This document shows positions 23,481-45,118 of a stretch of 49,595 nt of DNA, piece by piece (position 1 is the first letter of the stretch; every line of letters starts with the position of its first letter). The stretch comes from Planctomycetota bacterium (lineage in GTDB: Bacteria; Planctomycetota; Phycisphaerae; WQYP01), in NCBI GenBank assembly GCA_021831565.1, contig JAKBMM010000015.1, positions 1 to 49,595 on the forward strand, given 5' to 3'. Below the pieces are notes generated by a model. The model searched no databases, was not told where the DNA came from, and saw only the letters and a program-made list of their open reading frames with translations. Both the position numbers and the translations under genes were made by a program.

Positions 23481-23499
23481 AACTTTGCAAGGAGACATC

Positions 23500-24339
23500 A
23501 TGAAAAAAAACACGGAGAAAATTTCGGCCGGTACCGTGAAAAACCTCATGCCCCGGCGGGAGATGCTGGCCAGGGTGGCCCAGGGCGGTTTGACCGGAGC
23601 GGCTTTGCTGGGTATGGCCGGCGCCGCCGGGGCGGCGCCAAAAAAATGGCCCCCGATTTTGGAAATACCGGGTGCGGCCGGCCTCCATGATTTTAGCGCG
23701 ATCCTCGCCTCCGCCCCCCGTTCCAGAAACTTCAAGAAAGTCCCCATGATTCTCACCCATCCCGGCCAATGGGACGCGGTGGCTCTGGATATACTCCTGC
23801 ATTATCGTGGCGGCCCCAGACAAGTCTGGGACAACACGGATATCGCCAGCCCCTGGCTCAACCTGATGCGCAACGCCATGAACGCCCAGATATGGTCGTA
23901 TCGGCATCCTGATTTTCTCGCTGTTTCGGCCACGCACGGCACCTGTCACCTGGCGCTCTTCGACCCCTACGTCTGGGAAAAATACAATTTACCCGCCATG
24001 ATCGGCCACCAATACAAAAGCAACGTCTTTCTCCAAATTCCCCCGGCCGTCAAGGGCAAGCCGCGCGGCGACTACAACGATCCCCATGGCCTGTATTCTC
24101 CGTCCGCCAACTGCATTCCGTTGCTGATGGAGCGCGGCGCCGTTTTTCTGGCTTGTCACAACGCCATCTGGGAATTTTCCGGCGGTTTGCTGGCCAGGGG
24201 GCACAACCCGGATCATCTAACCCACGAGGCGCTGGCCGCGGAACTTACCAATCATTTGATTCCCGGAGTCGTGCTTACGCCGGGCATTGTTGCCACGATT
24301 CCCCAACTGGAGCTCGCGGGGTACCAATATATTAAATAA
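23500..24339 (+). CDS. Tat-exported DsrE-like protein
   Basis: A 279-residue protein starting at 23500, with AAGGAG eight bases upstream. The N terminus holds a twin-arginine signal (MPRREMLARVAQGGLTGAAL, then an Ala/Gly-rich stretch to GAAGAA). The mature part resembles the DsrE/DsrF-like fold: a MILTHPGQWDAVALDILLHY strand-helix start and a conserved Cys in VFLACHNAIWE, followed by LTNHLIPGVVLTPGIVATI. Such proteins are found next to periplasmic thiosulfate-oxidising cytochromes in sulfur oxidisers. The next gene is exactly such a cytochrome fusion, which supports a periplasmic sulfur role. The family call is moderate. Confidence 0.6.
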   Translation: MKKNTEKISAGTVKNLMPRREMLARVAQGGLTGAALLGMAGAAGAAPKKWPPILEIPGAAGLHDFSAILASAPRSRNFKKVPMILTHPGQWDAVALDILLHYRGGPRQVWDNTDIASPWLNLMRNAMNAQIWSYRHPDFLAVSATHGTCHLALFDPYVWEKYNLPAMIGHQYKSNVFLQIPPAVKGKPRGDYNDPHGLYSPSANCIPLLMERGAVFLACHNAIWEFSGGLLARGHNPDHLTHEALAAELTNHLIPGVVLTPGIVATIPQLELAGYQYIK

Positions 24340-24378: not shown

Positions 24379-26181
24379 ATGGTCCCGAGGCGCAGGGCGA
24401 TGGGCGCCGGTCTGGTTGGCGCCGCCGTGGTTGCCGGCGGCCTTACGGCCGCAGTCACTTACGCCGCCGCCGGCGGCTGGCGGGGCCGGGCGCGGCCCCC
24501 GTCTTATCAAGAGCGGATATTCCCGCCCTGGAGCCATGGCGCCAACGACCCGGCTCGGACCAAGGGCCTGCAATTCACAGTTCCGGAAGTGGATGATCTG
24601 GCCGATTTTCACGGCGATCCTTGCAATGCCAAACTGGTTCTTTACGTCGGCGGCAATTACTACTTCGCCATGGCGCCTCTGGTGGCGGCTTTTGAGCGGG
24701 AACACCCGGCCTTGCAAGGTCGAATTTACTCCGAGACCCTGCCGCCGGGAATTCTACTAAAGCAGATACGGTCGGGCGGAACCATCACCGTTGGCAATAT
24801 GACCTGGACCGCTCGACCGGATGTTTATGCCGCCGGTAAACGAAAGGTGCTGGCGCTGATCGCCCGGGGTATTCTTCGGGGACCGGCGATAAGCTACGCC
24901 ACCAACGACCTGGCAATCATGATTCCGCGGGGAAACCCGGGACACATCCGGAATCTGCGGGATCTGGCTCGGCCCGGCGTCCGCGTGGTCATGCCCAATC
25001 CCGCCTGGGAAGGAGTGGCGCGGCAGATACAACTTTCGCTGATCAAGGCCGGCGGCCCGAGCCTGGAGAAAATGGTTTATAAAACCAAGGTCGCCCGGGG
25101 ACAGACCATTCTCACGCATGTGCACCATCGGCAGACCCCCCTGTTTTTAATGCAGGGATTGGCGCAGGCGGGGGTGACCTGGAAATCGGAAGCTATTTTC
25201 CAGGAGCAGGCTGGGCATCCGATTTCTTACGTGCCCATTGCCGCCCGCTGCAACACCACGGCGATTTATGCCGGCGGGGTGTTGCGCCATGCGCCGCATC
25301 CGCAAGCGGCGCGGGAGTGGCTCGCGTTTCTCCAGTCTCCCCCGGCGCAGGCGATCTTGGCGCACTATGGATTCCACCCGGTAAGCGGACAAACAACCCC
25401 GCGCGCCGCGCCGCCGCGGAGGGGCGGCGATTCCCCGCCCCCATCCCTCGCCCCGGCGGAATCTTGGCGCCATTTTACGCCGCCGCCGGATTCCCGGATT
25501 CCCCATAACGCCTTTGGCGGGATGGTGCGGCTGGGCGAGAATATTTTTACTCATACCCAAACCTATGCAAAAAAATATGTTGGCGACGGTCTTAACTGCG
25601 TCAACTGTCACCTCGATCGCGGCCGCCGGGCGGGCGCCGCGCCGCTCTGGGCGGCCTACGTGGCCTATCCGCGCTACCAGGCCAAATACCACGGCGTCGT
25701 TACGTTCCAGAAACGCCTCCAGGGCTGCTTCCGCTTCAGCATGAACGGCACACCACCGCCCGCCAACGGCCGAATCCTGACCGCTTTGGTGGCCTATTCC
25801 TACTGGCTGGCCCACGGCGCCCCGGTGGGCGCCGCGATGCCGGGCCGGGGCTATCCGAAACTCCTTCGCCCGCCGCTTCCTCCCAGCGCGGCGCGCGGCA
25901 CCCGGGTGTTCACCGTCAACTGCGCTGCGTGCCACGGCGCACATGGCCAGGGTCTTCTTGTGAACGGGGCATACCAGTTTCCTCCGCTCTGGGGACCGGA
26001 GTCCTTTAATCAAGGCGCGGGTATGTACAAAGTCCGGCTGGCCGCCGCTTTTATCAAAGCCAATATGCCGCTGAACAAACCCGGCAGTCTCAGCAATCAG
26101 CAAGCCTGGGATGTCGCCGCTTTCGTGGACAGCCATCCCCGGCCGCCGCGGCCCCGCCAACCGGTAAAATCCCCGAATTGA
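24379..26181 (+). CDS. Fusion of periplasmic binding protein and TsdA-like dihaem cytochrome c
   Basis: A 600-residue exported protein with an AGGAGA site and a Tat-type signal (VPRRRAMGAGLVGAAVVAGG). Residues 70-335 form an extracellular solute-binding domain of the molybdate/sulfate type (KLVLYVGGNYYFAMAPLVAAFE, IMIPRGNPGHIRNLRDLARP, an EWLAFLQSPPAQAIL end). After a Pro-rich linker, residues 375-590 form a dihaem cytochrome like thiosulfate dehydrogenase TsdA. Its haem sites are CVNCH (about 412) and CAACH (about 517), and the RLQGCFRFSMNG motif carries the Cys that ligates the active-site haem in TsdA. It probably binds or oxidises thiosulfate or a related sulfur compound in the periplasm. 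It lies 39 bases after the DsrE-like gene. Confidence 0.75.
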   Translation: MVPRRRAMGAGLVGAAVVAGGLTAAVTYAAAGGWRGRARPPSYQERIFPPWSHGANDPARTKGLQFTVPEVDDLADFHGDPCNAKLVLYVGGNYYFAMAPLVAAFEREHPALQGRIYSETLPPGILLKQIRSGGTITVGNMTWTARPDVYAAGKRKVLALIARGILRGPAISYATNDLAIMIPRGNPGHIRNLRDLARPGVRVVMPNPAWEGVARQIQLSLIKAGGPSLEKMVYKTKVARGQTILTHVHHRQTPLFLMQGLAQAGVTWKSEAIFQEQAGHPISYVPIAARCNTTAIYAGGVLRHAPHPQAAREWLAFLQSPPAQAILAHYGFHPVSGQTTPRAAPPRRGGDSPPPSLAPAESWRHFTPPPDSRIPHNAFGGMVRLGENIFTHTQTYAKKYVGDGLNCVNCHLDRGRRAGAAPLWAAYVAYPRYQAKYHGVVTFQKRLQGCFRFSMNGTPPPANGRILTALVAYSYWLAHGAPVGAAMPGRGYPKLLRPPLPPSAARGTRVFTVNCAACHGAHGQGLLVNGAYQFPPLWGPESFNQGAGMYKVRLAAAFIKANMPLNKPGSLSNQQAWDVAAFVDSHPRPPRPRQPVKSPN

Positions 26182-26240: not shown

Positions 26241-27107
26241 TTACGGTATTTCGGAATTTTCTTCCCGCCGCGCGAAGGTGAGCATCTTTCCCTCCATCCG
26301 CACGCGAACGCGGTAAATCGGCTCCAGGATGGCGGACGTGAGCACCGCCTCCGGCGCGCCGTTTGCGGCTACCCGGCCGCCATGCAGCAGGATGATCTGA
26401 TCGGAAAATTGCCGCGCCAGGTTCAGTTCGTGGGCGACCCACCCCACCGCCCGGCCTTGCCGATGGGCCAGTTCTCCGAGCCGATGCAGCAGTTCCAGTT
26501 GATGCCACAGGTCCAGCGACGCCGTCGGTTCGTCCATGAGAATAATCGGCGCGTCCTGAGCCAGGGCGCGGGCGAGAACGACTCGCTGTCGTTCGCCGCC
26601 GGAAAGTTCATTAAACGTGCGATCAGCCAGATGGTGCACGTCGGTTCGCCACATGGCGTCCCGGGCGGCGGCGTGATCCGCGGGTGCATACGCCCCCAGC
26701 AGCGATTCGAGCGAACCGCCCTCCCGCCGGCGATTCCGCAGCGGCCAGCGGCCCATGAGCACGATCTCTTCCACGGTGTAGGCGAACGCCACCGCGGGCG
26801 TCTGCGGCGTAAAGGCGATGGTCGCCGCCAGTTCGGCGGCGGGAATCACGCCCAGAGGGCGGTTGTCCAGCAGCACCGCGCCGGCGCGCGGCTTGAGATA
26901 GCCCAGCAACACGTGCAGCAATGTTGATTTACCCGATCCGTTGGGGCCCAGAATGGCGGTGACCCGGCCGGGCGCAATGGCGACGCTCACGTTCTCCAGC
27001 ACGGGGGCGCCGGCGAATGAAAAGGAAATATCACGCCCGGCCAGCGTCGCCGCGTGCGGTGGGGCGGTCCGGATTTGCTCGGTTGGCTCCATCGGCATCT
27101 CCGTCAT
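26241..27107 (-). CDS. ABC importer ATPase, FecE/BtuD family
   Basis: ATP-binding subunit of a vitamin B12 or iron-chelate importer, 288 residues. Visible motifs are Walker A GPNGSGKSTLLHVLLG, Q-loop TPQTP, signature LSGGERQRVVLARAL, Walker B PIILMDEPTASLD and the His switch VAHELN. The start at 27107 is chosen because it overlaps the permease stop as ATGA; longer upstream extensions would lie inside the permease gene. It is the last gene of a binding protein-permease-ATPase operon. Confidence 0.92.
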   Translation of the reverse strand: MTEMPMEPTEQIRTAPPHAATLAGRDISFSFAGAPVLENVSVAIAPGRVTAILGPNGSGKSTLLHVLLGYLKPRAGAVLLDNRPLGVIPAAELAATIAFTPQTPAVAFAYTVEEIVLMGRWPLRNRRREGGSLESLLGAYAPADHAAARDAMWRTDVHHLADRTFNELSGGERQRVVLARALAQDAPIILMDEPTASLDLWHQLELLHRLGELAHRQGRAVGWVAHELNLARQFSDQIILLHGGRVAANGAPEAVLTSAILEPIYRVRVRMEGKMLTFARREENSEIP

Positions 27108-28144
27108 TGCCAGGTTCGCCGGCGGGTCAGCAGGTAGAGAAAAAACGGGCCGCCGCACAAGGCGGTGATTACGCCCACCGGCAGTTCGCCGCCAGGAAAC
27201 CATGCGCCGGTGCTGCGAACGAATGTGTCGGCCAACATCAGGAACACCGCGCCAAAAAAGGGACTCGCGACCAGCAGCCGGCGATGGTCCGGCCCCAGAA
27301 TATTCCGGCACACGTGCGGGCAGATCAACCCCACGAAGCCGATCGGCCCGGCCAGGGCGATCGAGGCCGCGGTCAGAAGAGCCGCTAGAATGAAACAGAT
27401 CGCCCGCAGCGATCCCAGCCGCACGCCGAGACTTTCCGATTCCACGTCGGATAGCGCCGCGATGTTCATGGCCCCGCCGATGGCCAGCGCCGCTCCCCAG
27501 CCGAGCAGCACCACCCCCAGGGCGATCCAGAGAGTGGTCGGTGCTGTGCCCTCACTGATGTAGCCGAAAAGATAATCGAGAATGTCGGCCCGGGCGCCGT
27601 AAGGAACCAGGTTGTCCAGGAACATCACCAACGCGCCGTTGATGCTGCTGATCACCACACCGGACAGAAGCAGGGTCAGGGGATCAAGCGTGCCGCCGCG
27701 TTTGCGGCCCAGAAAAAACACCACCGCGCAGGTAATCAGTGCGCCGACCAGCGCGGGCAGCGTCTGCCCGTTGGCGAAGAGCCCGGCCAGCCAGGGATGA
27801 TGCAGCAGAGCGCCGGCGATGAAGTCGCCCCAGACGATCCACATCATCACGGCCGCCGTGGCGCCGCTGGAAATACCCAGAATGTACGGATCGGCCAGCG
27901 GATTGCGGAGCAACCCCTGCAACAGCACGCCGGTCGCGGCCAGGGCCGCGCCCACAATCGCCGCCGAACCCACGCGAACCAGCCGCAGGTCGATGAATTC
28001 TGACGCGGGGATACCGAAGCTGATGCGATTGGACCCGGGCATACCGGGGCCGATCGCCAGACACAGCAACAGCACGCCTCCGGTCAACAGGCAACCGGTC
28101 AGGAACAGGCCCGTCAAACCAGGCGCCGCTGGCCGGTATCTCAT
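27104..28144 (-). CDS. ABC importer permease, FecCD/BtuC family
   Basis: Inner-membrane permease of 346 residues with the roughly ten helices of the BtuC/FecCD family. Family blocks are LRLVRVGSAAIVGAALAATG, LQGLLRNPLADPYILGISSG, GPIGFVGLICPHVCRNILGP and the C-terminal GELPVGVITALCGGPFFLYL. It overlaps the binding-protein gene and the ATPase gene by ATGA junctions, so the three subunits are translationally coupled. The substrate (cobalamin, haem or siderophore) cannot be told from the sequence. Confidence 0.93.
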   Translation of the reverse strand: MRYRPAAPGLTGLFLTGCLLTGGVLLLCLAIGPGMPGSNRISFGIPASEFIDLRLVRVGSAAIVGAALAATGVLLQGLLRNPLADPYILGISSGATAAVMMWIVWGDFIAGALLHHPWLAGLFANGQTLPALVGALITCAVVFFLGRKRGGTLDPLTLLLSGVVISSINGALVMFLDNLVPYGARADILDYLFGYISEGTAPTTLWIALGVVLLGWGAALAIGGAMNIAALSDVESESLGVRLGSLRAICFILAALLTAASIALAGPIGFVGLICPHVCRNILGPDHRRLLVASPFFGAVFLMLADTFVRSTGAWFPGGELPVGVITALCGGPFFLYLLTRRRTWQ

Positions 28145-29067
28145 GGTTTTTCTCCCGCATCGGCGGACGCCGCGGCCGCGCCGTGAATCAGGCGGGCCAG
28201 CAACCGCACCTGCCGATCCGCCGCCAATGAAAGCATTTCAAAATTCGCCGCCGTGATGAGAAAAATGCGATGATGGACCGCCGCGGGAATCGGCAGGCGT
28301 CTCCAGGCGGCAAGGCGCGGATCATTCGGTCCCTCCTGGCGTGGTTGGCCCGGAGCGGCGATCAATAAAATCTGCGGCGCCAGCCGAACCAGCGTTCCCC
28401 GGTCAATCGCCGGATAACCCGAGCCGACTTTTTCCGCCGCATTCATTCCGCCGGCAAGTGAAATCATCTGATTCAGGAATGTGTCCGTTCCCACGATCCG
28501 TATCGGACTTGTGCCGATAAGCAGCGCCACCGCGGGATGGGATCCGCGGGCGTATCGCCGGGAAATCTGGCGCAGATTCCGTTGCAGCCGCCGCCACCGC
28601 CGTTGCGCCGCCGGCAGGCGACCGGCGGCTTTTCCGAGCATTCGCACGGTATGGTAAAGCCCGCGCAGCGTATTCAAGTTGATGTTTAGAATGCGGAAGT
28701 GATGTTGGCGGGCCAGGGCAATAAGTCGCGGCGGTATGCGGAGGCGCGATCGTTGAATCACCAGGGCTGTCGGATGCAGCCGCAAAAGTGTTTCGTAATC
28801 AATGTGCAGGTAATTGCCCACGACGGGCAGACGCCGCAGAGCCGGTGGAAGCAGCGGCCGGTCGTAGGATGAAACGCCGACCAGAAGTTTCGCCGCGCCA
28901 ATCTGCAGGAGGATGTCGGTCGCGGCGGGCACGATGCTGACAATGCGCGGAACGGCGGATTGGCCGGCGGCGACGGTGGAATGCCGGCAGGCCGGGCAGG
29001 CTGTGAGCCATATCGCCGCTAGGCTGCACCCCAGGATCAACCGCCCCCGAAACATCATGCAATTCAT
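28141..29067 (-). CDS. ABC importer substrate-binding lipoprotein, BtuF/FecB type
   Basis: A 308-residue periplasmic binding protein. The start at 29067 gives a lipoprotein signal with the lipobox LTAC; the frame upstream is open but not protein-like. The mature part has the class III binding-protein pattern: RIVSIVPAATDILLQIGAAK, then VVGNYLHIDYETLLRLHPTA, GSGYPAIDRGTLVRLAPQIL and a Pro/Ala-rich C terminus. It delivers ligand to the permease encoded next. No cobalamin riboswitch was recognised upstream, which leaves the substrate open. Confidence 0.88.
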   Translation of the reverse strand: MNCMMFRGRLILGCSLAAIWLTACPACRHSTVAAGQSAVPRIVSIVPAATDILLQIGAAKLLVGVSSYDRPLLPPALRRLPVVGNYLHIDYETLLRLHPTALVIQRSRLRIPPRLIALARQHHFRILNINLNTLRGLYHTVRMLGKAAGRLPAAQRRWRRLQRNLRQISRRYARGSHPAVALLIGTSPIRIVGTDTFLNQMISLAGGMNAAEKVGSGYPAIDRGTLVRLAPQILLIAAPGQPRQEGPNDPRLAAWRRLPIPAAVHHRIFLITAANFEMLSLAADRQVRLLARLIHGAAAASADAGEKP

Positions 29068-29223
29068 GTTAAAAGCGGCGGTGGGAAATCTCAAACCGGA
29101 GGATATACCGCGTGCCCCAAATGCAATAAACCCGGCCCGAAAATTTTGGAGCTTCCGGCCGCCGGCCACGTGGACGATCGGCCGGCGCGGGAATTGTCCT
29201 CCATCAGCGGGTAGAATAAGGGC

Positions 29224-29892
29224 ATGTTCACGGGATTGGTACAAGCGGTTGGACGAATCAGGCAAATGCGGGAAACGCCGGCGGGTAGAAGGATCGTCGT
29301 CGATCTGGCGGAACTGGGCCAGGCAAAGGCCGCGCCAATTAAACCCGGCCAAAGCATTGCCGTTTCAGGGGTGTGCCTGACGGTTGCCGAATTGCCGGCG
29401 CCGGCGGAGGCGGGTTTTGATGTGGTCGCGCAAACCCTGCGCCGAACCACGCTCGGTGCTAAAAACACCGGGGATGCGGTGAATCTGGAGTTGAGTTTGT
29501 GCGTCGGCGACGCCCTCGGCGGGCATTTTGTCCAGGGACACGTCGAGGATGTCAGCCGCGTGCTGCGCGTGGAGACGAATCCCGCCGACTGGATGGTCAC
29601 ATTCGAATTGCCCCGCGCGGGCCGGGAAGCGATTCTTCCCCGGGGAAGCGTGGCGATTGACGGCGTGAGCATGACAGTGGCCGACGTCGCCGGCGATTGC
29701 TTCCGTGTCGCGGTGATTCCCACCACGCGCGAAAAAACCACGCTGGGACTGCTGCGCGGCGGCGAAGTAGTCAACATTGAAAGCGACATTCTCACCCGCA
29801 CGGTGGTGTACTACCTGGCGCGGTTCGGCCGCGGGAGTTTTTTACCCGGAACCTCACCCTGGGAACCGGAACCGGCTGGAACCACGCCATGA
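29224..29892 (+). CDS. ribE: Riboflavin synthase alpha chain
   Basis: Converts two 6,7-dimethyl-8-ribityllumazine molecules to riboflavin. The 222-residue product has the family N terminus MFTGLVQAVGRI and the duplicated lumazine-binding domains. The first contains SIAVSGVCLTVAEL and the second contains GSVAIDGVSMTVADV and IPTTREKTTLG. The GGHFVQGHVEDVSRV motif links the halves. An AAGGG site precedes the ATG. Its stop overlaps the pdxA start (ATGA), so two cofactor genes are coupled. No FMN riboswitch was recognised upstream. Confidence 0.96.
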   Translation: MFTGLVQAVGRIRQMRETPAGRRIVVDLAELGQAKAAPIKPGQSIAVSGVCLTVAELPAPAEAGFDVVAQTLRRTTLGAKNTGDAVNLELSLCVGDALGGHFVQGHVEDVSRVLRVETNPADWMVTFELPRAGREAILPRGSVAIDGVSMTVADVAGDCFRVAVIPTTREKTTLGLLRGGEVVNIESDILTRTVVYYLARFGRGSFLPGTSPWEPEPAGTTP

Positions 29893-31055: not shown

Positions 31056-34448
<3,393 letters not shown>

Positions 34449-34480
34449 GTATTAGCCCCGGGTTTGTAAATCCAGACAAT

Positions 34481-34523
34481 ACCCTTATTACTACCCTTAT
34501 TTAAGGGTATCACTACCCTTATT
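34481..34523. repeat. Three ACCCTTATT iterons between fic and the DUF499 gene
   Basis: Direct copies at 34481-34489, 34493-34501 and 34515-34523, with a partial inverted copy (AAGGGTAT) between the last two. They straddle the fic stop codon and lie just upstream of the DUF499 start. They may be an operator or a decayed repeat; nothing else supports a function. Confidence 0.5.
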
Positions 34524-35570
34524 CAGACCCGTTCTCTCCCAACGTGCTCCAGCACCGTGGCCGAACGACCGCAATTCGCCAGCCGCTTTCATTTGTCGCA
34601 AGATACTTCGAATCCAGTCGCGTCCCACTGCGGGGCAAGCACGTTCCAAATCAGCTACTCGAAAGCTACCCTGCTGACGATAAATCGCCTGTCGCACCAA
34701 TTCCGCTTTAGCGCCCAGCGGCTCCGCAATCTCTCCGACGCGCTGCTCAAATTCCTTGTAAGCCTCCTTGAGCACCCATAAGACATAATTGACAAATGGA
34801 CAGGGATTGTGCCGACCTTCATGCCAGCCCTGAGAGCTTTGCTCCAGTGTTTCGTAATACCGCTGCTTGTTCTGCTCGATCAACCGCTCAAGACTGATAT
34901 ATCTGCCGACTTCGGCCCCGGCGTGGTATGCCTGTTGGAGCATGAGCAGCCTGGAGACTCGTCCGTTGCCGTCGCGAAACGGATGGATACATAAAAAGTC
35001 CAATGCGAAGCCGGCCAGGACTACCAGCGGATTAACTCTCCGATCCCGCAACAGGCTGCCCCATCGTTCAACGAGTTCCACCACTGCCGTTTCAGTCGCC
35101 GGGCCGGCTTCCACCGGCATGAACCGCACTCGGCTGCGGCCGTCGGAAAATCGCTCAATGATCGGTTCGGTCTTTTGTTTATATTTGCCGGTATCCCATA
35201 TTTCGCCGCGCGCCAATTGATGCAATCGGCGGATGTTGGATTCCGTCACCGGCAGCGATGCGCCTTCACGATGGATCAGGTCCAACGCGGCCCGGTACCC
35301 GCGCACTTCCTCCTCGTCACGATCCTTCAGTACGGGCGAACCGAAAATTAACGTGGCCACCCGCTTTTGATCTACCTCTACACCTTCTATGCGATTGGAG
35401 GACACGGCGCTTTCGACCAATGCATGCTCCCGCAGGACTTTCAGCTTTTCGGGTGATTGCCGGGTAAACAATTCCTGCCTGCCCAGCGCCAGGCCCAGAT
35501 CGCCAACCAGCCATGTGTTGGCCAACGGTACGGTGGCCGCCGCATCAGAAAATAGGCGCAGAGTCATCAT
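34497..35570 (-). CDS. Fic family protein (predicted AMP-transferase, self-inhibited class)
   Basis: A 357-residue protein with the Fic motif HPFRDGNGRVSRL (about 195-207), which uses its His to transfer AMP or another nucleotide moiety to a target hydroxyl. An N-terminal helix carries SSNRIEG, which fits the (S/T)xxxE(G/N) inhibitory motif; this suggests a class II, self-inhibited enzyme. The C-terminal region resembles a winged helix (FRVADLERACPAVGRDWIRSILRQM). The ATG at 35570 overlaps the stop of the methyltransferase gene. It is inserted between the methylase and ATPase genes of the trio, so it may be a regulator or toxin-like accessory of the defence operon. Confidence 0.85.
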   Translation of the reverse strand: MMTLRLFSDAAATVPLANTWLVGDLGLALGRQELFTRQSPEKLKVLREHALVESAVSSNRIEGVEVDQKRVATLIFGSPVLKDRDEEEVRGYRAALDLIHREGASLPVTESNIRRLHQLARGEIWDTGKYKQKTEPIIERFSDGRSRVRFMPVEAGPATETAVVELVERWGSLLRDRRVNPLVVLAGFALDFLCIHPFRDGNGRVSRLLMLQQAYHAGAEVGRYISLERLIEQNKQRYYETLEQSSQGWHEGRHNPCPFVNYVLWVLKEAYKEFEQRVGEIAEPLGAKAELVRQAIYRQQGSFRVADLERACPAVGRDWIRSILRQMKAAGELRSFGHGAGARWERTGLNKGSDTLK

Positions 35571-35838
35571 TTGAACATTTCCTCCTGGGTTTGCGGGGGG
35601 GTGAGCGCTCCCCGCGCCAGCTTGCTGATCTCCGGCCAGGCGATGACCAGGCTGTTGTAGGCCAGGGCTTCGGCGGCCCATTTCTTGCGTTCGCAGACAT
35701 TGTAAAGCCGATAGGCCAGATCACGCGCGGCTTCGCCGACCGACCCAAGCCGGCGGAGCATATCGCCGGCCGCCACTTCGCCGCCGGTGTCCAAGGCGCG
35801 AATTAAATGCTGCACAACTTCCCAATGGGCCGGGGGGG

Positions 35839-35879
35839 ACGGGCCTTCCGCCCGACGATCGTCGGCCTGGAAGGCCGAC
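35839..35879 (-). repeat. REP-like palindromes in the methyltransferase gene (3' end)
   Basis: One degenerate hairpin (35839-35856) and one full hairpin GTCGGCCTGGAAGGCCGAC (35861-35879), flanked by G and C tracts. They are read in frame as part of the methyltransferase C terminus. Confidence 0.8.
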
Positions 35880-36513
35880 CCCCGCTTCCATGTTGTCGGG
35901 AGTTCATCGCGCTTCAGCAGGCGCACTTTGCCAGCGCGGGCGGCGATGATGCCCGCTTCCACCAGGCCGTTGACCGCGGTGTTTTTGGCGCGGCTGAGTG
36001 TTTCCGCTTCCCCGAATGGGCCATCTTCCATACCGAACTGTTCGAACCAGGCCACCGCCCAGCGCGTATCGGGATCGAATTCGCCTTCCTGCTCGGCCAG
36101 CACTTCATCGAGCATCTGGTTGATAAGCCCCAGCGCCTGTCGCACGGTCATGGATGATCCGTCGGCTTCCATAACCTTCGAGTAGCGCGTAAAAATAGCC
36201 ATTCCCGGCCCGATGGCGGCTTGCGCCAGATCGACCGGGGCTATATTGCCGGCCTGCAAATGGCGGAGGGCATCCGGCAATTCGCGTTTGAGCGCGGCAA
36301 GAAATTCGCGCCGCGTGGCGAGAGGAGCGTCGATTGCGCGCGGGCGGCAGGAAAGAACAATGGAAGATGCCAGGGCGTTGGTACCAATGCCGATACTGCG
36401 CGCACCGCGCTCCGTGCGCATTGGCCACGTTCCATCAACCGAAAAACCCGAGCGAATCAAGCCCTCTAGCATAGTTTCCCAGCCGGTGGAGGAAATGTGA
36501 ATGGCTTGGCTTT

Positions 36514-36619
36514 GGGGGTCGGGCATCAGGGGGTCGGGCATCTTGCCCGACTCTGAATCAGTTAATAGTCGGGCTGGAAGCCCGACCCCCGTTGGGGGCT
36601 GGCGGCCAGGATGGCCGCC
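36514..36619 (-). repeat. REP-like palindrome cluster in the methyltransferase gene
   Basis: A half unit (36514-36528) is followed by three hairpins: GTCGGGCATCTTGCCCGAC (36533-36551), GTCGGGCTGGAAGCCCGAC (36568-36586) and GGCGGCCAGGATGGCCGCC (36601-36619). The last has changed both arms in step, keeping the stem. Confidence 0.85.
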
Positions 36620-37308
36620 CCCCGGATCTCCTTCCGCGGTTTCCTCCGACTGTTTGAAGGCGTAGAAAACCGTCAGCGGGTAATCCGCGTGGCCGGCGGC
36701 GCGCATGGCCTCGAACGCCTTGCCGAGTCCCTGCTCGAAAAACTGTTGGGCTTTTTGTTTGCTGCCGCCGTGGCGGTAGGGCGAAGAGATCAGTTCGTCT
36801 GCCTTGGGCGTAAGCAAGGTTTTGAAAAGATCGGGATAAATATCACCTAACGATCGCCGGAGCCAGACGTAAAAAAAATCGCTTAAATCGGCGTAGCCGA
36901 TGTTGTCGTAATAAGGCGGGTCAGTTGAAATCAATAGGCTCGGCTCATTCTGTCGCTCCGCCGCCGCGGACGACTGGATCACGTGGGCTGCAGCGGATGC
37001 CGGCAGTTGCAGGAGGGCAAGCGCCGTCCACTCCACCGCAGCACTCCAATTTGCAGTCGACGTACTGAGAGGATTACACTCACAGTAATCCCACGTCATT
37101 GGTAGCGCCTGCCGTGCAAAGCAACCTCGGATGAACTCTGCGGATGACGACCAAGTAGCCACGGTGCACCAATAATCGGCTGATTTATCCACCGCAAACG
37201 CCAAATACGTCGCCACGGCGTCGGCGTAGGCTTGGGGGCCGGTGCCGCCTTGGTCAATGCCGCGTGAATCCCATGGGGGTTGATCTCCTGGGTGTCGACC
37301 TTCTGGGG

Positions 37309-37434
37309 GGCGGGCGTCTCGCCCGCCAATTGCTTCCGTCTGGCAAGATGCCCAACCCCATTTTTGATCCAGAGTCGGGCCGGATGGGGGTCGGCCTTCC
37401 AGGCCGACATTCGAAGTCGGGCAAGATGCCCGAC
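37309..37434 (-). repeat. REP-like cluster downstream of the RAYT domain
   Basis: Full hairpins are GGCGGGCGTCTCGCCCGCC (37309-37327), GTCGGCCTTCCAGGCCGAC (37390-37408) and GTCGGGCAAGATGCCCGAC (37416-37434, followed by CCCCC). Degenerate units lie at about 37280 and 37340. All are in the methyltransferase frame. Confidence 0.85.
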
Positions 37435-37952
37435 CCCCATTATTCATGATGTACATTGATGTCTTTTGGACATCCGTCTGATCCCGCATATAACGATCAA
37501 AATAGTCATCCTGCCAGAATGGGCCGGAGCGCCCCAATAATTGATTGCACTCCTTGGCCGTAAATGATTTCCAGGAATGCAAAATGTTGGCAAGGCGCTG
37601 CCCTTCCTGCGGCACAAAAAGTACATGCACATGATTGGGCATGATGCACCAGGTATGCAGGTGGTAGCGCTCGCCATCAAAATGCTCAAGCGCCGCTTGG
37701 ATCACATCGGCGATGGCTGGTTCGCCAAGCCAGCCCGGGCCGTGGCCGCGATCGAGCTCTGCTTCCAGCTTTTCCCGGTACTGCTCGGAAGTTATCTGGC
37801 CCGAAGCAAGCTCCTGCTTGGCGCGGGCCAGGTACTCCGCAGGCAGACTTCCGGCGAGCCGGAAGGTAACGTGTTGCAGTTTGCCGGGTTGGTCGAAGTG
37901 CGGAGGATGCTTTTCGCCGCGGCGATAGAAGCCCTTGGGAGGCGGGCCTTCT

Positions 37953-38073
37953 GGGGGTCGGCCTTCAGGGGGTCGGGCGTCTCGCCCGACATCTACCTCC
38001 AGAGTCTGGCTGGTTGGGGGTCGGCCATCTTGGCCGACAATCTCAGCATTTACCGTCGGGCAAGATGCCCGAC
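37953..38073 (-). repeat. REP-like cluster upstream of the RAYT domain
   Basis: A half unit lies at 37953-37967. Hairpins follow at 37972-37990 (GTCGGGCGTCTCGCCCGAC), 38020-38038 (GTCGGCCATCTTGGCCGAC) and 38055-38073 (GTCGGGCAAGATGCCCGAC). Together with the downstream cluster they bracket the transposase as in a REP-RAYT locus. Confidence 0.88.
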
Positions 38074-38702
38074 CCCCTACCCGCGCGTCGGCCAATACCT
38101 TCTCACGGGCTTCTTTGACCAGATCGCTGAACGTGGTCAGCGCGGTCAGTTGGCGCGGGGTGAAAAGGTCACCTATATTTGGCATCCCATACGCTGGTGT
38201 CTGGAAATTGCGGTGTTTAACGGGGAGTTGGCAATCCGGCCGCCAAGTCGGCGTGGCCGATTCCGCTGCCCCGACATGCGATTCCAGCGGTGACAGATAT
38301 ACTCGGCCTCGCGTGCCCTCTGCGACAATCGCCATGAGCCGCTGGCTCATCCGCCCGGCCTTGCCTTCGGCGCGGACGTGCGTGAACGGCATCGGTGAAT
38401 CGCTGAGAGCACACCGACCGCCCTTCCGCCCAATCGTGCCGATTCCCGGGTCAAATCCCTCCGACGGCTTGCCCACACGCACTTCAAAACGGTAGCTGTT
38501 ATTTTCCCGGTCAATGATCGGTTCGACCCACGCTTCTTTGCCTTTTTTGGTGGAAAGCCAGAAGGACCGCACCAGCGGTACATGGGCACCGCCCACAGCC
38601 GGATTCGGGCTGGCGACTGTTCTGGCCCAGATCCACGCGATGACTGTAAGCTCTTGGCCGAGGTACGGCTCAAGATCAGGCCGAATGGGGAGCCTCTTGG
38701 GG

Positions 38703-38792
38703 GTCGGCCATCCTGGCCGACAGTTAAAGTCGGACTGGCTGGGGGTCGGCCTTCCAGGCCGACGTTCTCCAGAATCGGGCGAGACGCCCGAC
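38703..38792 (-). repeat. REP-like triple palindrome in the methyltransferase gene (5' part)
   Basis: Hairpins lie at 38703-38721, 38745-38763 and 38774-38792, flanked by G and C tracts. The spacing and the spacer sequences (AGTTAAAGTCGG, GTTCTCCAGA) match the block at 34234-34323 in the DUF499 gene. It adds about 34 residues after VWGSKWGSGV. Confidence 0.9.
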
Positions 38793-39125
38793 CCCCATTT
38801 TGACCCCCAGACCATTTCTTCCGTTATTTTTATTTTCGGATACAGGTGGCCAATTCTTTTCTCGGCTTCGTCGCGCATCCACTTCCCATAATAGCGCACA
38901 TCTTCAGCCAGTCCTTGTGCACCTTTCCAGCCATCCTTCAGCCGCGCATTGGATTCCGGATTCACCGGCGGCTTGCTGGCAAACTTCGGCGGAATTTCGA
39001 TCAGTGCCTTGGTAATCAGAACGGGAACCGGATTCAAATCGCTGCCGTACGCCCGTAGTCCCAGCCGCTGGGCTTCCAGCGGGATTGATCCGCCGCCGCA
39101 GAAGGGGTCGAGTACAGGCGGGGCG

Positions 39126-39319
39126 GGGCCTGTGACAGTTTCTGCAACCGGATAAGTTTGGGGGTAACCGTTCACGGGCCAAAAATCGCTTAAAATCAAA
39201 GAAATAATGTGGAATCTGAAGTTTATGGGGCATAAAAATCACAAAAAAAGTGCTCTGCAAAGCAAAAAGTGGCGTTTTTTTGCTGATTACGCCACTTTTG
39301 CAGAAACTGTCACAGGCCC
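39126..39319. mobile_element. 194-bp MITE with inverted ends and 9-bp target duplication
   Basis: The ends are perfect inverted repeats of about 22 bases, beginning GGGCCTGTGACAGTTTCTGC, at 39126 and 39319. They are flanked by direct copies of GGCGGGGCG (39117-39125 and 39320-39328), the target duplication. There is no transposase gene inside, so it is a non-autonomous element moved by an unseen transposase; the family is not recognised. It is AT-rich compared with the host gene and splits the methyltransferase after codon 163. Confidence 0.92.
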
Positions 39320-39829
39320 GGCGGGGCGTGTTCGATGAGAAATTGGTTGACATTTTCCGACTTGGCCAAACGGCAAACATAATTCCAGGATTTTTCACGG
39401 CAAATGGTCTGGTGTCTGGACCATTCCTTGGTGTCGTATATTTTGCGCGAGGCGATGCAAGCGGCAATTTCGGCACGGGCTTGATTGAGCACTTTTTCGT
39501 TATTGGAATTTTCCCATCTGACCAGTTCCTCGATCAGGCTGAAAAGCTCGGCGCGGCGCACACCGGCGCGGTCTTCATCGACTGTTCCATCAGCTTTACG
39601 AAACGACGGATCAGAATCCGGATCATCCACCAGCGAAGCAAACAGCACCGCCCGGCAAGCCGCCAACGGCCGCCGCGCCCACCAAAGATGCAGTGTGGAC
39701 GGATGCCCATGCCGGATGGATTTTTCGCGCGCCGATTCGCGATTGATCGCCTCCAGCGGCAAGGCGACTTCGATGAGCTTTTTGCGGTAGGCGGTCACTG
39801 GCGACTCCATAGTATTTTATTCAGCCATT

Positions 39830-39873
39830 GGAATTGCGCCGGAATTGCACCGGCGCAATTCCGGCGCAATTCC
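39830..39873 (-). promoter_or_regulatory. Perfect 19-bp hairpin in the leader of the methyltransferase gene
   Basis: GGAATTGCGCCGGAATTGC (39830-39848) is followed after ACCGGC by its exact reverse complement (39855-39873). In the minus-strand mRNA this hairpin ends 19 bases before the methyltransferase ATG, in the only sizeable gap (106 bases) of the island. It could attenuate transcription or hide the start; no T tract follows. Confidence 0.7.
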
Positions 39874-39916
39874 GATCCTGCATAAGTTACGCTATTAGCA
39901 TTAGTTAGAGCGTCCA

Positions 39917-41566
39917 TTATGATTGCACCTTCTCCGTCGGAAATATCGGGCTGGCATACCAGCGAGTCCCTTTGGTGCGTCCCTCATTGCGAACCCGGCC
40001 TTCGGCTTTCAATTCCTTGAGCAATTTTTGGATTTGGCTACGCGAGAGCGCGGGCAGAACCTGCTGGAGCTCGTCGAACCGCGCACCATCCGGATGGTTG
40101 CCCTGAATATGCTTCAAAAGCAGTTCCTTGTTCGTTCCCCGATCCAGACCGCGCTTGCGAGTGTAGACGCCTCGTTTACCAGTAAGGCGGTAGAACTGGC
40201 GCGGAAGCAGGTATCGCGTCCCTCGGCCTCGACCGAGTGATTCAATTGTGCCTTGATCCAGCAATTGGTGCAGTCGGGTCTGAAGTTCAGGTGGCACCGG
40301 TTGTTCGCGGTGCACCAAATCGAGGACGAGAAGATCCTCGGTAGCAAAAGACCGCACCCGCTCTTCGCCTACTCTTTCCAAAAATCTGAGGAATGCCGGG
40401 TCTTGAATCTCGCCGTGCAGCGTTAAGGCTACCTGGTAATCGTCGGTGTGCGTAAAATCCGGCAGGGGTTTGCTCTGCTTGATGCTTTCCTCGAACATCC
40501 GGTTGGCTCCCTGGCCGGATCGCTCCACCAAATCGCATTTCTCAAACACCTCGGCAATGCGGCGGTTGCGCGGCGACTGGCGGTAGAGGATGTTTTGCGG
40601 GGTAATCCCCGCCGGAAAGCCACCCGGACTGACTATTTCGATGCGACGCTGGTATTGGCGGATGAAAACTGAGCCGCTCAAACGGTAATCGCGGTGGCTC
40701 ACGGCGTTAAGAATAGCCTCTCGCACAGAGCCTTCGGCGAACGTGGGGACGTCCATCATGAACAGGCCATCTTGAAAATGCTGCACATCATTGCGCAGAT
40801 TGATTGTTTCCCACAGGTTCTCATAAAAAAGCAGAAACCCCTCACGGAACGCCAAGCGTTGGCTGGCTGGGCCCGCGGCTTCGGAGGAGCGGTACTCGAA
40901 GATCACTTCGGCCTGCGGCAAAAATCGCCCCAGAGATGCCCCCTTGCCCATCAACGCCAAGGCCGCGTAAGTGATGCCGCGGTGATCAATCAGTTCGGCA
41001 TCGGCCAAAAACTGGTCGGCGGGTAACCGGGACAAGGCTTCATTCTTCGACCGCCTGATCCAGCGTTTGCGGAACACTTCTATGGCGTCCGGATTAAGGT
41101 CGGTGAGTGTGGCTTTGGGGCAAATTTCGGCGGAGAAATCGGGGCCAGCCTCATCAAAGATGCGCTGCAGCATGTCGGGCGTCATTGGCGCCAGGTCTTC
41201 ACCGGCGCGCATCCAGTAGGCTCCTTCAACGGCGATCGGCATGCCGATAGGTCGGGATGGAGCGGTAAACACCAATACACGGCCGTTCGAATGTATGATT
41301 TCGTCAGCCTCAATCCGCAGGCGGAGCTTTTCAATCAGCCCAGCCTTGGTTCGCTCCAAGTCGGTAAACGCCCGGCTACCCACCACTTGGCGAGGGCGCG
41401 TGTCGGTGACGCCCAGAACCATAGCCCCACCTCCTTCGTTGGCCAGAGCGGCGCAGTATTTTACGAGCTTCTCAAAATGAAAATTGTTTTTGGCCTCCTT
41501 GAATTCCAGGTGCTCGTTCTCACCGGCATTCAACCATTCCTGAAGTTGCTGGTTCGATACAGTCAT
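39917..41566 (-). CDS. AlbA_2 (Schlafen-type) ATP-binding protein with winged helices
   Basis: A 549-residue protein. Residues 10-130 match the AlbA_2/divergent Schlafen domain: EHLEFKEAKNNFHFEKLVKY, then CAALANEGGGAMVLGVTD. A GHKL-like ATP-binding segment follows near 290-370 (VREAILNAVSHRDYRLSGSV, VSPGGFPAGI and NRRIAEVFEKCDLVERSGQG). The C terminus has winged-helix character (RSQIQKLLKELKAEGRVRNE). Such proteins occur as regulators and as effectors in defence islands. The start overlaps the helicase stop (ATGA), showing tight coupling. It has no REP insertion, unlike the three larger neighbours. Confidence 0.85.
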   Translation of the reverse strand: MTVSNQQLQEWLNAGENEHLEFKEAKNNFHFEKLVKYCAALANEGGGAMVLGVTDTRPRQVVGSRAFTDLERTKAGLIEKLRLRIEADEIIHSNGRVLVFTAPSRPIGMPIAVEGAYWMRAGEDLAPMTPDMLQRIFDEAGPDFSAEICPKATLTDLNPDAIEVFRKRWIRRSKNEALSRLPADQFLADAELIDHRGITYAALALMGKGASLGRFLPQAEVIFEYRSSEAAGPASQRLAFREGFLLFYENLWETINLRNDVQHFQDGLFMMDVPTFAEGSVREAILNAVSHRDYRLSGSVFIRQYQRRIEIVSPGGFPAGITPQNILYRQSPRNRRIAEVFEKCDLVERSGQGANRMFEESIKQSKPLPDFTHTDDYQVALTLHGEIQDPAFLRFLERVGEERVRSFATEDLLVLDLVHREQPVPPELQTRLHQLLDQGTIESLGRGRGTRYLLPRQFYRLTGKRGVYTRKRGLDRGTNKELLLKHIQGNHPDGARFDELQQVLPALSRSQIQKLLKELKAEGRVRNEGRTKGTRWYASPIFPTEKVQS

Positions 41567-44500
41567 GCCGGCTCCTTCGCCTGGGCCAGCAGTGCGGCCA
41601 AGTCGTAATTGACGCTTGTGGCTTTGAAATCCGGCTCTTTCTCAAACGGTTTGCGGACATATCGCACGTCGGTCTTGTCTTCATCAATCAGGGCGATGGC
41701 GAGAATGAATTCGTCGGGCTTGTTGAGGCCGGTGAGAATTTCGTTCTTGGTGAGAGTGACGGTCTTGGCGCCGTTCACGCGACCCTTGGCTTCCAGGAAC
41801 CGCAGCAGGCCGGTTCCTGGTATGGCCGATTCGATGTCGTAACCAAGGTTCTGCGCGCTTACGTCCTTTGGGACAAATCCAAGTCGGCGCTCCGTGGCCA
41901 TGATTGCGTCCATGGCGAGCCGCTCTGAATGCTCGGTTTCGATAGACTGCGGGGGTCGGCCATCTTGGCCGACCTCTGTCGGGCTGGAAGCCCAACCCCC
42001 AAGTTTCCTTAGCAGCCCTGCGGGCACGATCATCGCGCCGCCGAGTACCACCGGCGGAAGCGGAGCAAGCTTGCGCTGCTGTTCCAACTCGGTGAGGCGT
42101 TTGCGCATCCGGGCCTCCAACTCGTTGGCACGCTGTCGGGCAAGGCCGGAATTCAGCCGGGCGTTGACCTTGCCGGCACGTTCCTGATCCGCCAGTTGTG
42201 TAGCTCGGTGATCCCAATAGTTAATCTCTTTGGTGAGTCGGTCCTGAACAGCGGCCTTGGTTTTGTCCAGCAGTTCTTCCTTCCGGCGGCGCAATTCGTC
42301 AAGATGCTGCGGCACCAGGTGAATCGCGGCGTGTTCCATCGCCTTGGATTCAAGATCGCCGCGAATCCACTCAGGCATCGTCATGTCCTGGAGGGTCTTC
42401 ACTTCGTCCGCCGTCGGCGGGCGATAGTCGAGGTACGGGGCAGGCCCGGCGTTCAGAGCGTTTCCTTCCCCGTCAATCTCAACAAACTGCATCCGCTTCG
42501 ACACGACGCGCCGGTTGCCGGCGCGGTCGGTGCGGGCGTCCTGAATGGCGTGCTCCAGGTAGAGCAAGGCCCGCGACTGTTGGCCGTCGTCGGTGTCATC
42601 GATGAGGATCGCGCCGCGTTTGAGCAGATCGCGGTAACGCTCGATGATCAGGTCGAGCGTTGCATCCAATAAAGGGTGGCCCGGGCACACAAACGCGGCG
42701 AGCGGTTTGCCGGGAATGCTGATAAGGTCCTTCTCGAACGTGATGCGTTCATAGCGCGGCAATACGGAATCACCGCGTCCGATCTGGCGATCACGGTTAC
42801 GGATGAGAGCGGGGACATGTTTGATCTCGTACCGCTTTGTTTCCCGTTCGTGAATTGTCCCGCCAAGCAGCGTAAACGCCTCGATAAAGAATGAGGCGAT
42901 GAAATGCGGCTGCAAACGCCGCGCCTCGGCCCGCTGCATATCTTGGCGAATTTGCCGGACCTTGGTTACATCCATGGCGTCGTGCGCCAGGGCGCGGCTT
43001 TCAATAAGTTCACGCAGGCGCTGCCGGTCCAAAGCCTTTTCGACAACTTGGAATAAACGTGCTTTCACCACTGGCTGGTCGCCGTAGCGTATCGCTTCAA
43101 GCAGAAGCTCGCGAAGCGGTCGGTCCTCAAAGGTCAACTGCCCCAGTACGTCAAAGACCTGCCCGCCAAGCGCGTCACGCTCTTCAGCGATCTTTTCCAA
43201 TAGCCGAAAATAGACCTCGCCCTCCCGTGTGTCCTTGGCGACGAGGTTCCACAGGTGACAAACTTCGGTCTGCCCGATGCGGTGAATGCGGCCGAAACGT
43301 TGCTCAAGCCGATTGGGGTTCCACGGCAGGTCGTAATTGACCATCAGGTGCGCCCGTTGCAGGTTGATGCCTTCGCCGGCGGCGTCGGTCGCAACCAGGA
43401 TTTCGACCTCTTTATCCTGGGTAAAGGATTCCTGGGCTTTGCGTCGATCCTCGCGCCCAATACCGCCATGAATAACGACAACAGCCTCCGGTCGGCCCAG
43501 TAGTGCTCTGATCTTTTCCGACAGGTAATTCAGCGTGTCGCGGTGCTCAGTGAAGATGACGAGCTTGCGGCGATGACCGTGGGCGTCGAACATTTCGGAA
43601 TTATCCTGAAGAATCCGCGAGAGCTCATCCCATTTGCGGTCGGTGCCGGACTGACGCACGCGAAGCGCTGTGCGCTCTAAATCCTGTAACAAGGCGATCT
43701 CGGTCCGCAGTTCCGCGATGGTCCGGGCGGCGGAGGCCTGGTCAACGACACGCTCCTCGGTTTCCTCGATCTCGCGGTCGGGAGCATCATCAAGGTCCGC
43801 AAGGTCGTCGTTGGTCATTGCGGGCAGCTCCGCCGTCATGTCGATTTGAGCGCCGCGTTTGAGAAGCTCTTCTTCGCGCAGGCGTTTTTCAAGGCGCTCG
43901 CGGCGGCGGCGCAGAGATTGAAGGATCGCCTCCGGAGACGATGCCAGCCGGCGCTGAAGGATTGTCAAAGCAAAGCCGACGGTTCCCTTGCGGCCCTCGT
44001 TTTCCAGCGCCTCGGCCCGATTGAATTCCTCCCGGACATAATCGGTAACCAGCTTGTAAAGCTCGGCTTCCGCATCGGATAGCGAATAATTCACCGTGTA
44101 CGCCCGCCGCTCCGGGAACAGGGGTGTTCCGTCGAATTTAAGCAATTGTTCTTTGACCAGACGGCGCATCATGTCCGCGGTATCAGTGACGTGAACGCCG
44201 TCGCGGAATTTCCCCTCGAACCGGTCGCCGTCGAGCAAGGCCATGAACAACTGGAAGTCGGCTTCCTTCCCGTTGTGCGGCGTGGCGGTCAAAAGCAGGA
44301 AATGCCGCGTAAGTGCGGAGAGTAATTGGCCGAGCCGGTAACGTTTGGTGTATTTGATTTCGTTGCCATCGTACGTGGCACTGAGCTTATGCGCTTCATC
44401 ACAGACGATCAGGTCCCAATCCGTCTGTTGCAGCTTGGCCTGGGTATCTTCATCGCGGCTGAGCTTGTCCAGCCGGCAGATGGCCAGCGGAGTTTCGCTA

Positions 44501-45087
44501 AACCAATTCCCGGTGCGGGCTGATTGAAGCCCATCGTTGGTCATGATCTCGAACGGCAGTTGGAAACGGCGGTCGAGTTCATCCTGCCATTGCTCTACGA
44601 GATTGCCGGGGCAGACGATCAAGCAGCGCTGTAAGTCGCCGCGGGCGTGGAGTTCCTTAATCAACAGGCCCGTCATAATCGTCTTGCCGGCGCCCGGGTC
44701 ATCCGCCAGAAGAAAACGCAGCGGTTGGCGGGAAAGCATCTCGCTGTAAACCGCCGTGATCTGGTGGGGCAATGGCTCGACAAGTGATGTATGAACAGCC
44801 AACAACGGGTCAAATAGATACGCCAGCCGGATACGGTTGGCTTCGGAGAGCAAACGGAACAGCGCACTGTCGCCGTCAAAACTCCATGGTCGGCCGGCTT
44901 CGACGATATCAAGCGTCGGCTCGCGGTCGCGATACAGCAATTCGCCGCCGAGCCGCCCGCCGGCGTCTTTGTAGGTCACCTCAATGGCGACGGCGCCGAT
45001 CCAGCGCACGTCGCTGATCGTGACAATGCCATCCGGCAGAATGCCTTTGACTGCCGCACCACGGGTGATTTGTTCAAGTGTCGCCAT
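41563..45087 (-). CDS. SNF2/DEAH-family helicase with C-terminal DUF3883 domain (Hma-type)
   Basis: An 1174-residue superfamily 2 DNA translocase. Motif I is LADDPGAGKTIMTG (about 126-139), motif II CDEAHKLS (about 225) and motif III LLLTATPHNG. The C-terminal RecA half has TDAAGEGINLQRAHLMVNYD and NRLEQRFGRIHRIGQ (about 590-605). A long coiled region follows, then a DUF3883 domain at about 1080-1170 (LGYDIESAIPG, LRFLEAKGRVNG) with a nuclease-like D...ExK pattern. A REP cluster is read in frame at about 1030-1046, just before DUF3883. The ATG at 45087 is chosen because the conserved start MATLEQITRGAAVKGI begins there; an earlier in-frame start would overlap the TIR gene. This is the helicase of the helicase-methylase-ATPase trio. 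Confidence 0.88.
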   Translation of the reverse strand: MATLEQITRGAAVKGILPDGIVTISDVRWIGAVAIEVTYKDAGGRLGGELLYRDREPTLDIVEAGRPWSFDGDSALFRLLSEANRIRLAYLFDPLLAVHTSLVEPLPHQITAVYSEMLSRQPLRFLLADDPGAGKTIMTGLLIKELHARGDLQRCLIVCPGNLVEQWQDELDRRFQLPFEIMTNDGLQSARTGNWFSETPLAICRLDKLSRDEDTQAKLQQTDWDLIVCDEAHKLSATYDGNEIKYTKRYRLGQLLSALTRHFLLLTATPHNGKEADFQLFMALLDGDRFEGKFRDGVHVTDTADMMRRLVKEQLLKFDGTPLFPERRAYTVNYSLSDAEAELYKLVTDYVREEFNRAEALENEGRKGTVGFALTILQRRLASSPEAILQSLRRRRERLEKRLREEELLKRGAQIDMTAELPAMTNDDLADLDDAPDREIEETEERVVDQASAARTIAELRTEIALLQDLERTALRVRQSGTDRKWDELSRILQDNSEMFDAHGHRRKLVIFTEHRDTLNYLSEKIRALLGRPEAVVVIHGGIGREDRRKAQESFTQDKEVEILVATDAAGEGINLQRAHLMVNYDLPWNPNRLEQRFGRIHRIGQTEVCHLWNLVAKDTREGEVYFRLLEKIAEERDALGGQVFDVLGQLTFEDRPLRELLLEAIRYGDQPVVKARLFQVVEKALDRQRLRELIESRALAHDAMDVTKVRQIRQDMQRAEARRLQPHFIASFFIEAFTLLGGTIHERETKRYEIKHVPALIRNRDRQIGRGDSVLPRYERITFEKDLISIPGKPLAAFVCPGHPLLDATLDLIIERYRDLLKRGAILIDDTDDGQQSRALLYLEHAIQDARTDRAGNRRVVSKRMQFVEIDGEGNALNAGPAPYLDYRPPTADEVKTLQDMTMPEWIRGDLESKAMEHAAIHLVPQHLDELRRRKEELLDKTKAAVQDRLTKEINYWDHRATQLADQERAGKVNARLNSGLARQRANELEARMRKRLTELEQQRKLAPLPPVVLGGAMIVPAGLLRKLGGWASSPTEVGQDGRPPQSIETEHSERLAMDAIMATERRLGFVPKDVSAQNLGYDIESAIPGTGLLRFLEAKGRVNGAKTVTLTKNEILTGLNKPDEFILAIALIDEDKTDVRYVRKPFEKEPDFKATSVNYDLAALLAQAKEPA
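41955..41996 (-). repeat. REP-like palindrome pair in the helicase gene
   Basis: One full hairpin GTCGGCCATCTTGGCCGAC (41955-41973) and one nearly full GTCGGGCTGGAAGCCCAAC (41978-41996), flanked by G and C tracts. It is translated in frame as GGWASSPTEVGQDGRPPQS, sitting in the linker before DUF3883. Confidence 0.85.
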
Positions 45088-45118
45088 TGATTCAATTCCG
45101 TAAACCGCCGAGTCATCA

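Follow-up and report, generated by a model that had tools for sequence, protein, structure and literature searches.

What is a substrate-binding domain of the molybdate and sulfate type doing in one polypeptide with a TsdA-like dihaem cytochrome, and is the join between them genuine? The question is raised by a 600-aa open reading frame in the 49,595-nt stretch of planctomycetal DNA analyzed here, which we call the window. AAAAGGAG lies six bases 5' of this frame (24379-26181), which comprises the following parts:

24379..26181, + strand, SBP-TsdA fusion open reading frame, 600 aa, a single uninterrupted frame
24379..24468, + strand, signal peptide or membrane anchor, Sec-type according to the family comparison (17 homologues aligned)
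24496..25386, + strand, substrate-binding domain (SBP; SBP_bac_11), 297 aa, free of indels across 17 genomes
25387..25470, + strand, Pro-rich linker, of differing length and composition among the homologues
25471..26172, + strand, TsdA dihaem cytochrome module, aa ~364-595, complete

A preliminary description of this DNA had assigned both domains to one chain, and this held up: the frame is open throughout, and Pfam matched SBP_bac_11 (6.1e-49, aa 86-332), SoxA-TsdA_cyt-c (aa 396-483) and Cytochrom_C (aa 504-585). The closest solved structures were the sulfate binders 6ddn and 1sbp for the N-terminal part, and 5lo9 (7.6e-73) and 4wq7 (9.4e-51; A. vinosum TsdA) for the C-terminal part. An AlphaFold model of the fusion (mean pLDDT 78) left the linker unordered, and Foldseek returned the same two sets of structures with this model as the sequence search had done, with a TMt of 0.76 to 4wq7. 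The Tat signal that the same description had placed in front of the fusion did not survive comparison across the family. The RRR motif occurs only in the window protein and its nearest relative, while the remaining 15 of 17 homologues start with K/R and a hydrophobic stretch, are Sec-like and not of the twin-arginine type; Tat export is thereby ruled out as a family feature, and the family's signal peptides predict that the fusion is probably exported by Sec.

A frameshift or an assembly artefact joining two genes at the Pro-rich linker would refute the fusion. Homologues were sought in 61 genomes, comprising 28 of the window's family (acid mine drainage Phycisphaerae) and 33 others of the class. 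The same domain fusion recurred at full length in 17 of the 28 family genomes, the window's own included, with the 16 other copies 61-94% identical to the window protein; the 33 genomes from elsewhere in the class lacked it. When 84,980 species genomes were scanned, 16 fusions came up, all from Planctomycetota/Phycisphaerales metagenome-assembled genomes (MAGs), along with 63 loci in which the SBP is unfused (L063-L125). Across the family fusions the linker measures 20-55 aa. Both domains are under purifying selection (dN/dS in close pairs of 0.04-0.12 for the SBP and 0.06-0.13 for TsdA), while the linker reaches 0.26-0.74 in most close pairs; a loose tether between two kept folded domains is the pattern expected of a working fusion. 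Full-length copies from different genomes and several assemblies, linkers of varying length in stop-free frames, selection on either side of the linker and differing flanking genes together exclude a joining error, which we regard as practically out of the question. One of the fusion genomes was reported as MAG 19 in work on acid mine drainage, where it was put in the Phycisphaerae order UBA1161 (PMC8357290). No description of an SBP-TsdA fusion was found in the literature searched, of which coverage was partial, and the fusion is real, conserved and, within that literature, apparently undescribed.

The cytochrome module has these key positions:

25597..25611, + strand, haem 1 motif CVNCH, CxxCH kept in 17/17 fusions
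25726..25728, + strand, Cys450 in QGCFRFS, haem 1 axial and catalytic Cys (AvTsdA Cys96), Cys in 47/47 TsdA rows
25921..25935, + strand, haem 2 motif CAACH, CxxCH kept in 17/17 fusions
26062..26067, + strand, Asn562-Met563 (CjTsdA N254/M255), haem 2 Met ligand, without the AvTsdA-type Lys208

The two haem motifs and the Cys of QGCFRFS are thus present as first described, the latter aligning with Cys96 of A. vinosum TsdA (AvTsdA). By alignment, AvTsdA positions Cys96, Arg92, Ser100 and Met209 are retained in all 17 fusions; Arg82, which with Arg92 makes up the active-site Arg pair, is replaced by Lys in all 17, as in the characterized MpTsdBA, and Lys208 by Asn in all 17, as in both Campylobacter jejuni TsdA (CjTsdA) and MpTsdBA. 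With its Asn-Met pair, CjTsdA has a His/Met haem 2 (PMC5146829), and on this precedent, together with the retained TsdA ligand residues, we predict Cys/His ligation of haem 1 and His/Met ligation of haem 2 in the fusion. The A. vinosum and C. jejuni enzymes are likewise dihaem proteins with a Cys/His haem 1 and a Met at haem 2, but they stand alone, and AvTsdA carries Lys208 and Arg82 where the fusion has Asn and Lys. MpTsdBA of Marichromatium purpuratum (5lo9) resembles the fusion in joining a C-terminal TsdA to an N-terminal partner in one chain, and the two agree in the Lys, Arg, Cys, Ser, Asn and Met of their key positions; the MpTsdBA partner, however, is the dihaem TsdB, an electron carrier, whereas that of the fusion is a binding protein. 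No N-terminal dihaem TsdB was found in the fusion, the N-terminal part of which is SBP_bac_11. SoxA was ruled out as an identity for the cytochrome, since the fusion scores 47.2 bits against the cut-off of 110 for NCBIfam TIGR04484.

The Asn-Met pair also bears on the direction of catalysis. If the cytochrome worked chiefly in the opposite direction, reducing tetrathionate that the SBP captures, haem 2 would be in keeping with the reduction-biased CjTsdA; MpTsdBA, however, shares the pair and is biased to oxidation (PMC5146829), so that direction is unreadable from these two residues. As the partner TSD described below is oxidative and the genome encodes aerobic haem-copper oxidases, we consider a reductase quite improbable.

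The binding domain was matched by SBP_bac_11 in 17/17 fusion members and carries three landmarks:

25009..25011, + strand, Glu211 (PNP(A)WEGV loop), aligned with Ser130 of 1SBP, invariant in SBPs of both kinds, fused and unfused
25123..25134, + strand, HHRQ loop, aa 249-252, invariant, adjoining the putative anion pocket
25180..25182, + strand, Trp268, invariant, aligned with Trp192 of 1SBP

It shares its fold with the Sbp, CysP, SubI and ModA binding proteins (6ddn, 7tav, 1atg, 1sbp) and has Trp268 in common with 1SBP, the Trp192 of which is a sulfate ligand, but it differs from them in its WEGV anion loop, its invariant HHRQ loop and the lack of any visible ABC permease partner. Because Glu-Gly-Val replaces the Ser130-Gly-Gly anion loop of 1SBP (Ser130-Gly132), the ligand is not deducible from the sulfate binders. 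Nearly all putative pocket positions are identical between fused and unfused SBPs, so the ligand is probably shared and older than the fusion. NCBIfam scores, at 30.8 bits against a cut-off of 62.5 for modA, 29.6 against 155.5 for the sulfate family and 29.2 against 308 for CysP, place the domain in a distinct subfamily, far under the CysP, Sbp and ModA cut-offs. Its unfused relatives, 60-72% identical to the window SBP, sit in thiosulfate-oxidation clusters.

These data speak to the possibility that the SBP is a normal component of an ABC importer for sulfate, thiosulfate or molybdate, fused by chance. Its ModA/Sbp-type fold would suit such a role, and thirteen BPD-type permease genes lie elsewhere in the genome; no cognate permease, however, adjoins the SBP in the window or in seven annotated homologous clusters, and the low family scores and the predominant pairing with oxidation genes also argue against transport, making this role very improbable.

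A FecCD-type ABC importer does occupy 26241-29352 of the window (- strand), convergent with the fusion gene. A tie between the two was rejected, given the opposite strand, the importer's own binding protein (Peripla_BP_2) and its lack of conservation at this place outside the genus. Farther along the - strand, at 31056-45153, the window carries a complete-looking Hma defence system (HmaC 31056-34448, HmaB 35567-39199, HmaA 41563-45153), inside which lie a Fic-type protein (34497-35681) and a 549-aa open reading frame (39917-41566); a capP-like frame follows beyond it (45598-46662). In other genomes a second, shorter binding protein adjoins the first SBP, namely in Komagataeibacter (L134), Hymenobacter (L044) and Paraburkholderia (L045), and in the latter two this extra protein is an SBP_bac_11.

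If not a permease, what does the SBP work with? The gene directly upstream encodes a thiosulfate dehydrogenase (TSD):

23500..24339, + strand, TSD, Acidithiobacillus-type thiosulfate dehydrogenase (NF052225), 279 aa, with Tat signal and DsrE-like fold as predicted
23554..23559, + strand, twin arginine of the TSD Tat signal, both Arg at least 90% conserved in 59 homologues
24154..24156, + strand, invariant TSD Cys (ACHNAIWE), candidate DsrE active-site position

We place the start at the ATG at 23500, which has AGGAG upstream, although the open reading frame had been listed from a TTG at 23485. The protein scores 346.1 bits on NCBIfam NF052225 (cut-off 300), presumably the family to which A. 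ferrooxidans AFE_0042 belongs. Its Tat export, claimed in the preliminary description, is borne out by the conserved twin arginine. The accompanying label of a DsrE-like protein stood in part, applying to the predicted fold but not to the sequence. No Pfam family was matched in the window copy, no DsrE match was obtained in any of the 59 homologues, and a profile search of solved structures with the TSD sequence gave nothing useful; an ordinary Pfam DsrE was therefore rejected, the resemblance lying in fold only. In an AlphaFold2 model (pLDDT 87), the top Foldseek matches were of the DsrE family (2pd2, 1l1s and 3pnx dsrE), with a probability of 1.00 but E-values of about 0.01 to 2pd2 and 1l1s and a TMq of just 0.30-0.36 within that family, and the invariant Cys aligned with a DsrE Cys in weak hhalign comparisons. 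Calling the modeled fold DsrE-like thus has some merit, at weak Foldseek E-values.

Within the family, TSD immediately precedes the fusion wherever the context is complete, and it occurs in exactly the fusion-bearing genomes, 17 with a full copy and one with a partial copy out of 28; in the partial case (G016), only the C-terminal part of the fusion is present, at a contig end. The genes flanking the pair differ between genera, which marks the pair itself as a conserved unit.

The 63 unfused loci place this pair in a broader setting. The SBP gene comes after TSD in 43 of them and after DsrE in 11; DoxD, a quinone-linked subunit, is nearby in 32 and TsdA in 12, and neither of the latter is nearby in 19, for a few of these owing to close contig ends. 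No locus holds both TSD and DsrE (0/63; Fisher p 3e-7) or both DoxD and TsdA (0/63; p 5e-5), with shared ancestry ignored in both tests and some loci cut by contig ends. The common layout is [TSD or DsrE] - SBP - [DoxD or TsdB/TsdA], with DoxD usually within about 50 bp downstream of the SBP and TsdA upstream or on the opposite strand in a minority of loci (L065, L076, L089, L109). The unfused parts form a modular, widespread operon in which either TSD or DsrE can occupy the position ahead of the SBP, and the window protein joins its middle and last slots. The preliminary description had recognized neither this operon nor the neighbor as a thiosulfate dehydrogenase.

Individual clusters illustrate this layout. 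Ferrovum (TSD-SBP-TsdB-TsdA) and an Acidobacterium (TSD-SBP-TsdA), represented by loci L096 and L117-L123, have the window's parts in the window's order but as separate genes, and an acetobacterium has TSD-SBP-TsdBA. The SBP and TsdA genes of L096 are unfused and 95 bp apart, and this arrangement is the unfused counterpart of the window protein. The acidobacterial TsdA itself, encoded right after TSD-SBP (L096 6986-7939), is very divergent (end branch 1.39). Plasmid clusters of Bradyrhizobium, Methylobacterium, Paraburkholderia, Bosea and Komagataeibacter pair the SBP with TsdB/TsdA, and no ABC permease is listed in them. The tsd-sbp-doxDA cluster of A. ferrooxidans has already been published (PMC6335251); in its tsd-sbp-doxDA-rhd region (AFE_0042 to AFE_0050; PMC6335251, PMC2754497) a TSD of the same family is immediately followed by an SBP of the same kind, but there the SBP stands alone with DoxDA in the downstream slot, whereas the window SBP is fused to TsdA. 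TsdA is absent from Acidithiobacillus according to a review (PMC6335251), and the window SBP is up to 69% identical to Acidithiobacillus SBPs. That the same parts are separate neighboring genes in other bacteria suggests that the SBP has its role in sulfur oxidation rather than in uptake. On a Thioclava plasmid (L135, 2609-7303), a 695-aa cytochrome whose C-terminal part resembles TsdA has as neighbors a response regulator and a binding protein of the PhnD/SsuA type, an arrangement that may represent a sensor pair for thiosulfate or tetrathionate.

In a TsdA tree, the fusions form one clade (SH-aLRT 94) within a supported group (96) that includes TsdAs of TSD-SBP clusters and MpTsdBA, separate from TsdAs found in other Planctomycetota. 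The tree, a quick one that leaves the sister group unplaced, fits a single fusion that followed the cluster's transfer from Proteobacteria-like donors. Among plasmid TsdAs, those closest in sequence to the fusion TsdA mostly adjoin TSD-SBP.

Taken together, we consider it fairly probable that TSD and SBP-TsdA make up a two-gene periplasmic unit for thiosulfate oxidation, in which the SBP works for an oxidase instead of an ABC importer. The fusion would be exported and loaded with haem outside the cytoplasm. Its SBP domain would capture a divalent sulfur oxyanion, most likely thiosulfate and possibly tetrathionate, and hand it to TSD, to the tethered TsdA or to both, through a putative contact or complex between the two proteins. 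Tat-exported TSD, with its DsrE-like fold and one invariant Cys, would supply cysteine chemistry; TsdA would make the S-S bond at the Cys-ligated haem 1, from which electrons may run via the His/Met haem 2 and a periplasmic carrier to a haem-copper oxidase. The TsdA module would take the electron-acceptor slot filled elsewhere by DoxD or by separate TsdB/TsdA genes. The window's genome encodes haem-copper oxidases (two COX1 genes), cytochrome c assembly genes and TatC; SoxB and DoxD, considered as extra thiosulfate genes, were not detected in it. The sulfur-oxidation system with built-in substrate capture that had been proposed for this locus stands as a hypothesis well backed by the TSD neighbor, the TsdA residues and the relatives in oxidation clusters, with capture, substrate and direction of reaction as its inferred parts.

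TsdA is a complete enzyme that works alone in other bacteria (PMC5146829), which speaks against the two-gene unit in that two adjoining thiosulfate dehydrogenases would be redundant. It would suit SBP-TsdA being a self-sufficient thiosulfate dehydrogenase, the SBP of which only raises the local substrate concentration while TSD performs a separate step without handing over electrons. The TsdA catalytic residues, all kept or conservatively replaced, and the annotation of TSD as a complete thiosulfate dehydrogenase agree with this. Yet no family genome with complete context has TSD or the fusion without the other, and the SBP also pairs with TSD or DsrE where TsdA is absent, so we judge such independence unlikely. 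Also counting against the two-gene unit are the 19 unfused loci with neither DoxD nor TsdA nearby, the altered anion loop and the thirteen permease genes elsewhere in the genome. A wider form of the two-gene proposal, which we offer tentatively and hold to be possible but somewhat doubtful, is an undescribed modular thiosulfate oxidase made of a DsrE-fold Cys protein, a non-transport SBP and an exchangeable electron outlet. The SBP would then be a subunit of the catalytic complex that presents the substrate, and the outlet would lead to quinone by way of DoxD or to cytochrome c by way of TsdB/TsdA. A. ferrooxidans TSD is reported to use neither ubiquinone nor horse cytochrome c as electron acceptor in vitro (PMC6335251); if true, the modular oxidase would explain how TSD disposes of electrons without a recognizable cofactor site.

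The fusion acts as a Rosetta stone, tying an orphan SBP that has stood unexplained beside Acidithiobacillus TSD for years to an oxidation reaction, and it offers a single covalent protein on which the role of the SBP in oxidation becomes testable. For a binding protein, being coupled to a redox enzyme in place of a transporter would, if true, be unusual. For the organisms themselves, the study that reported MAG 19 surveyed sox and dsr genes only (PMC8357290), and with the TSD-fusion pair the acid-mine Phycisphaerae gain a plausible capacity for thiosulfate oxidation.
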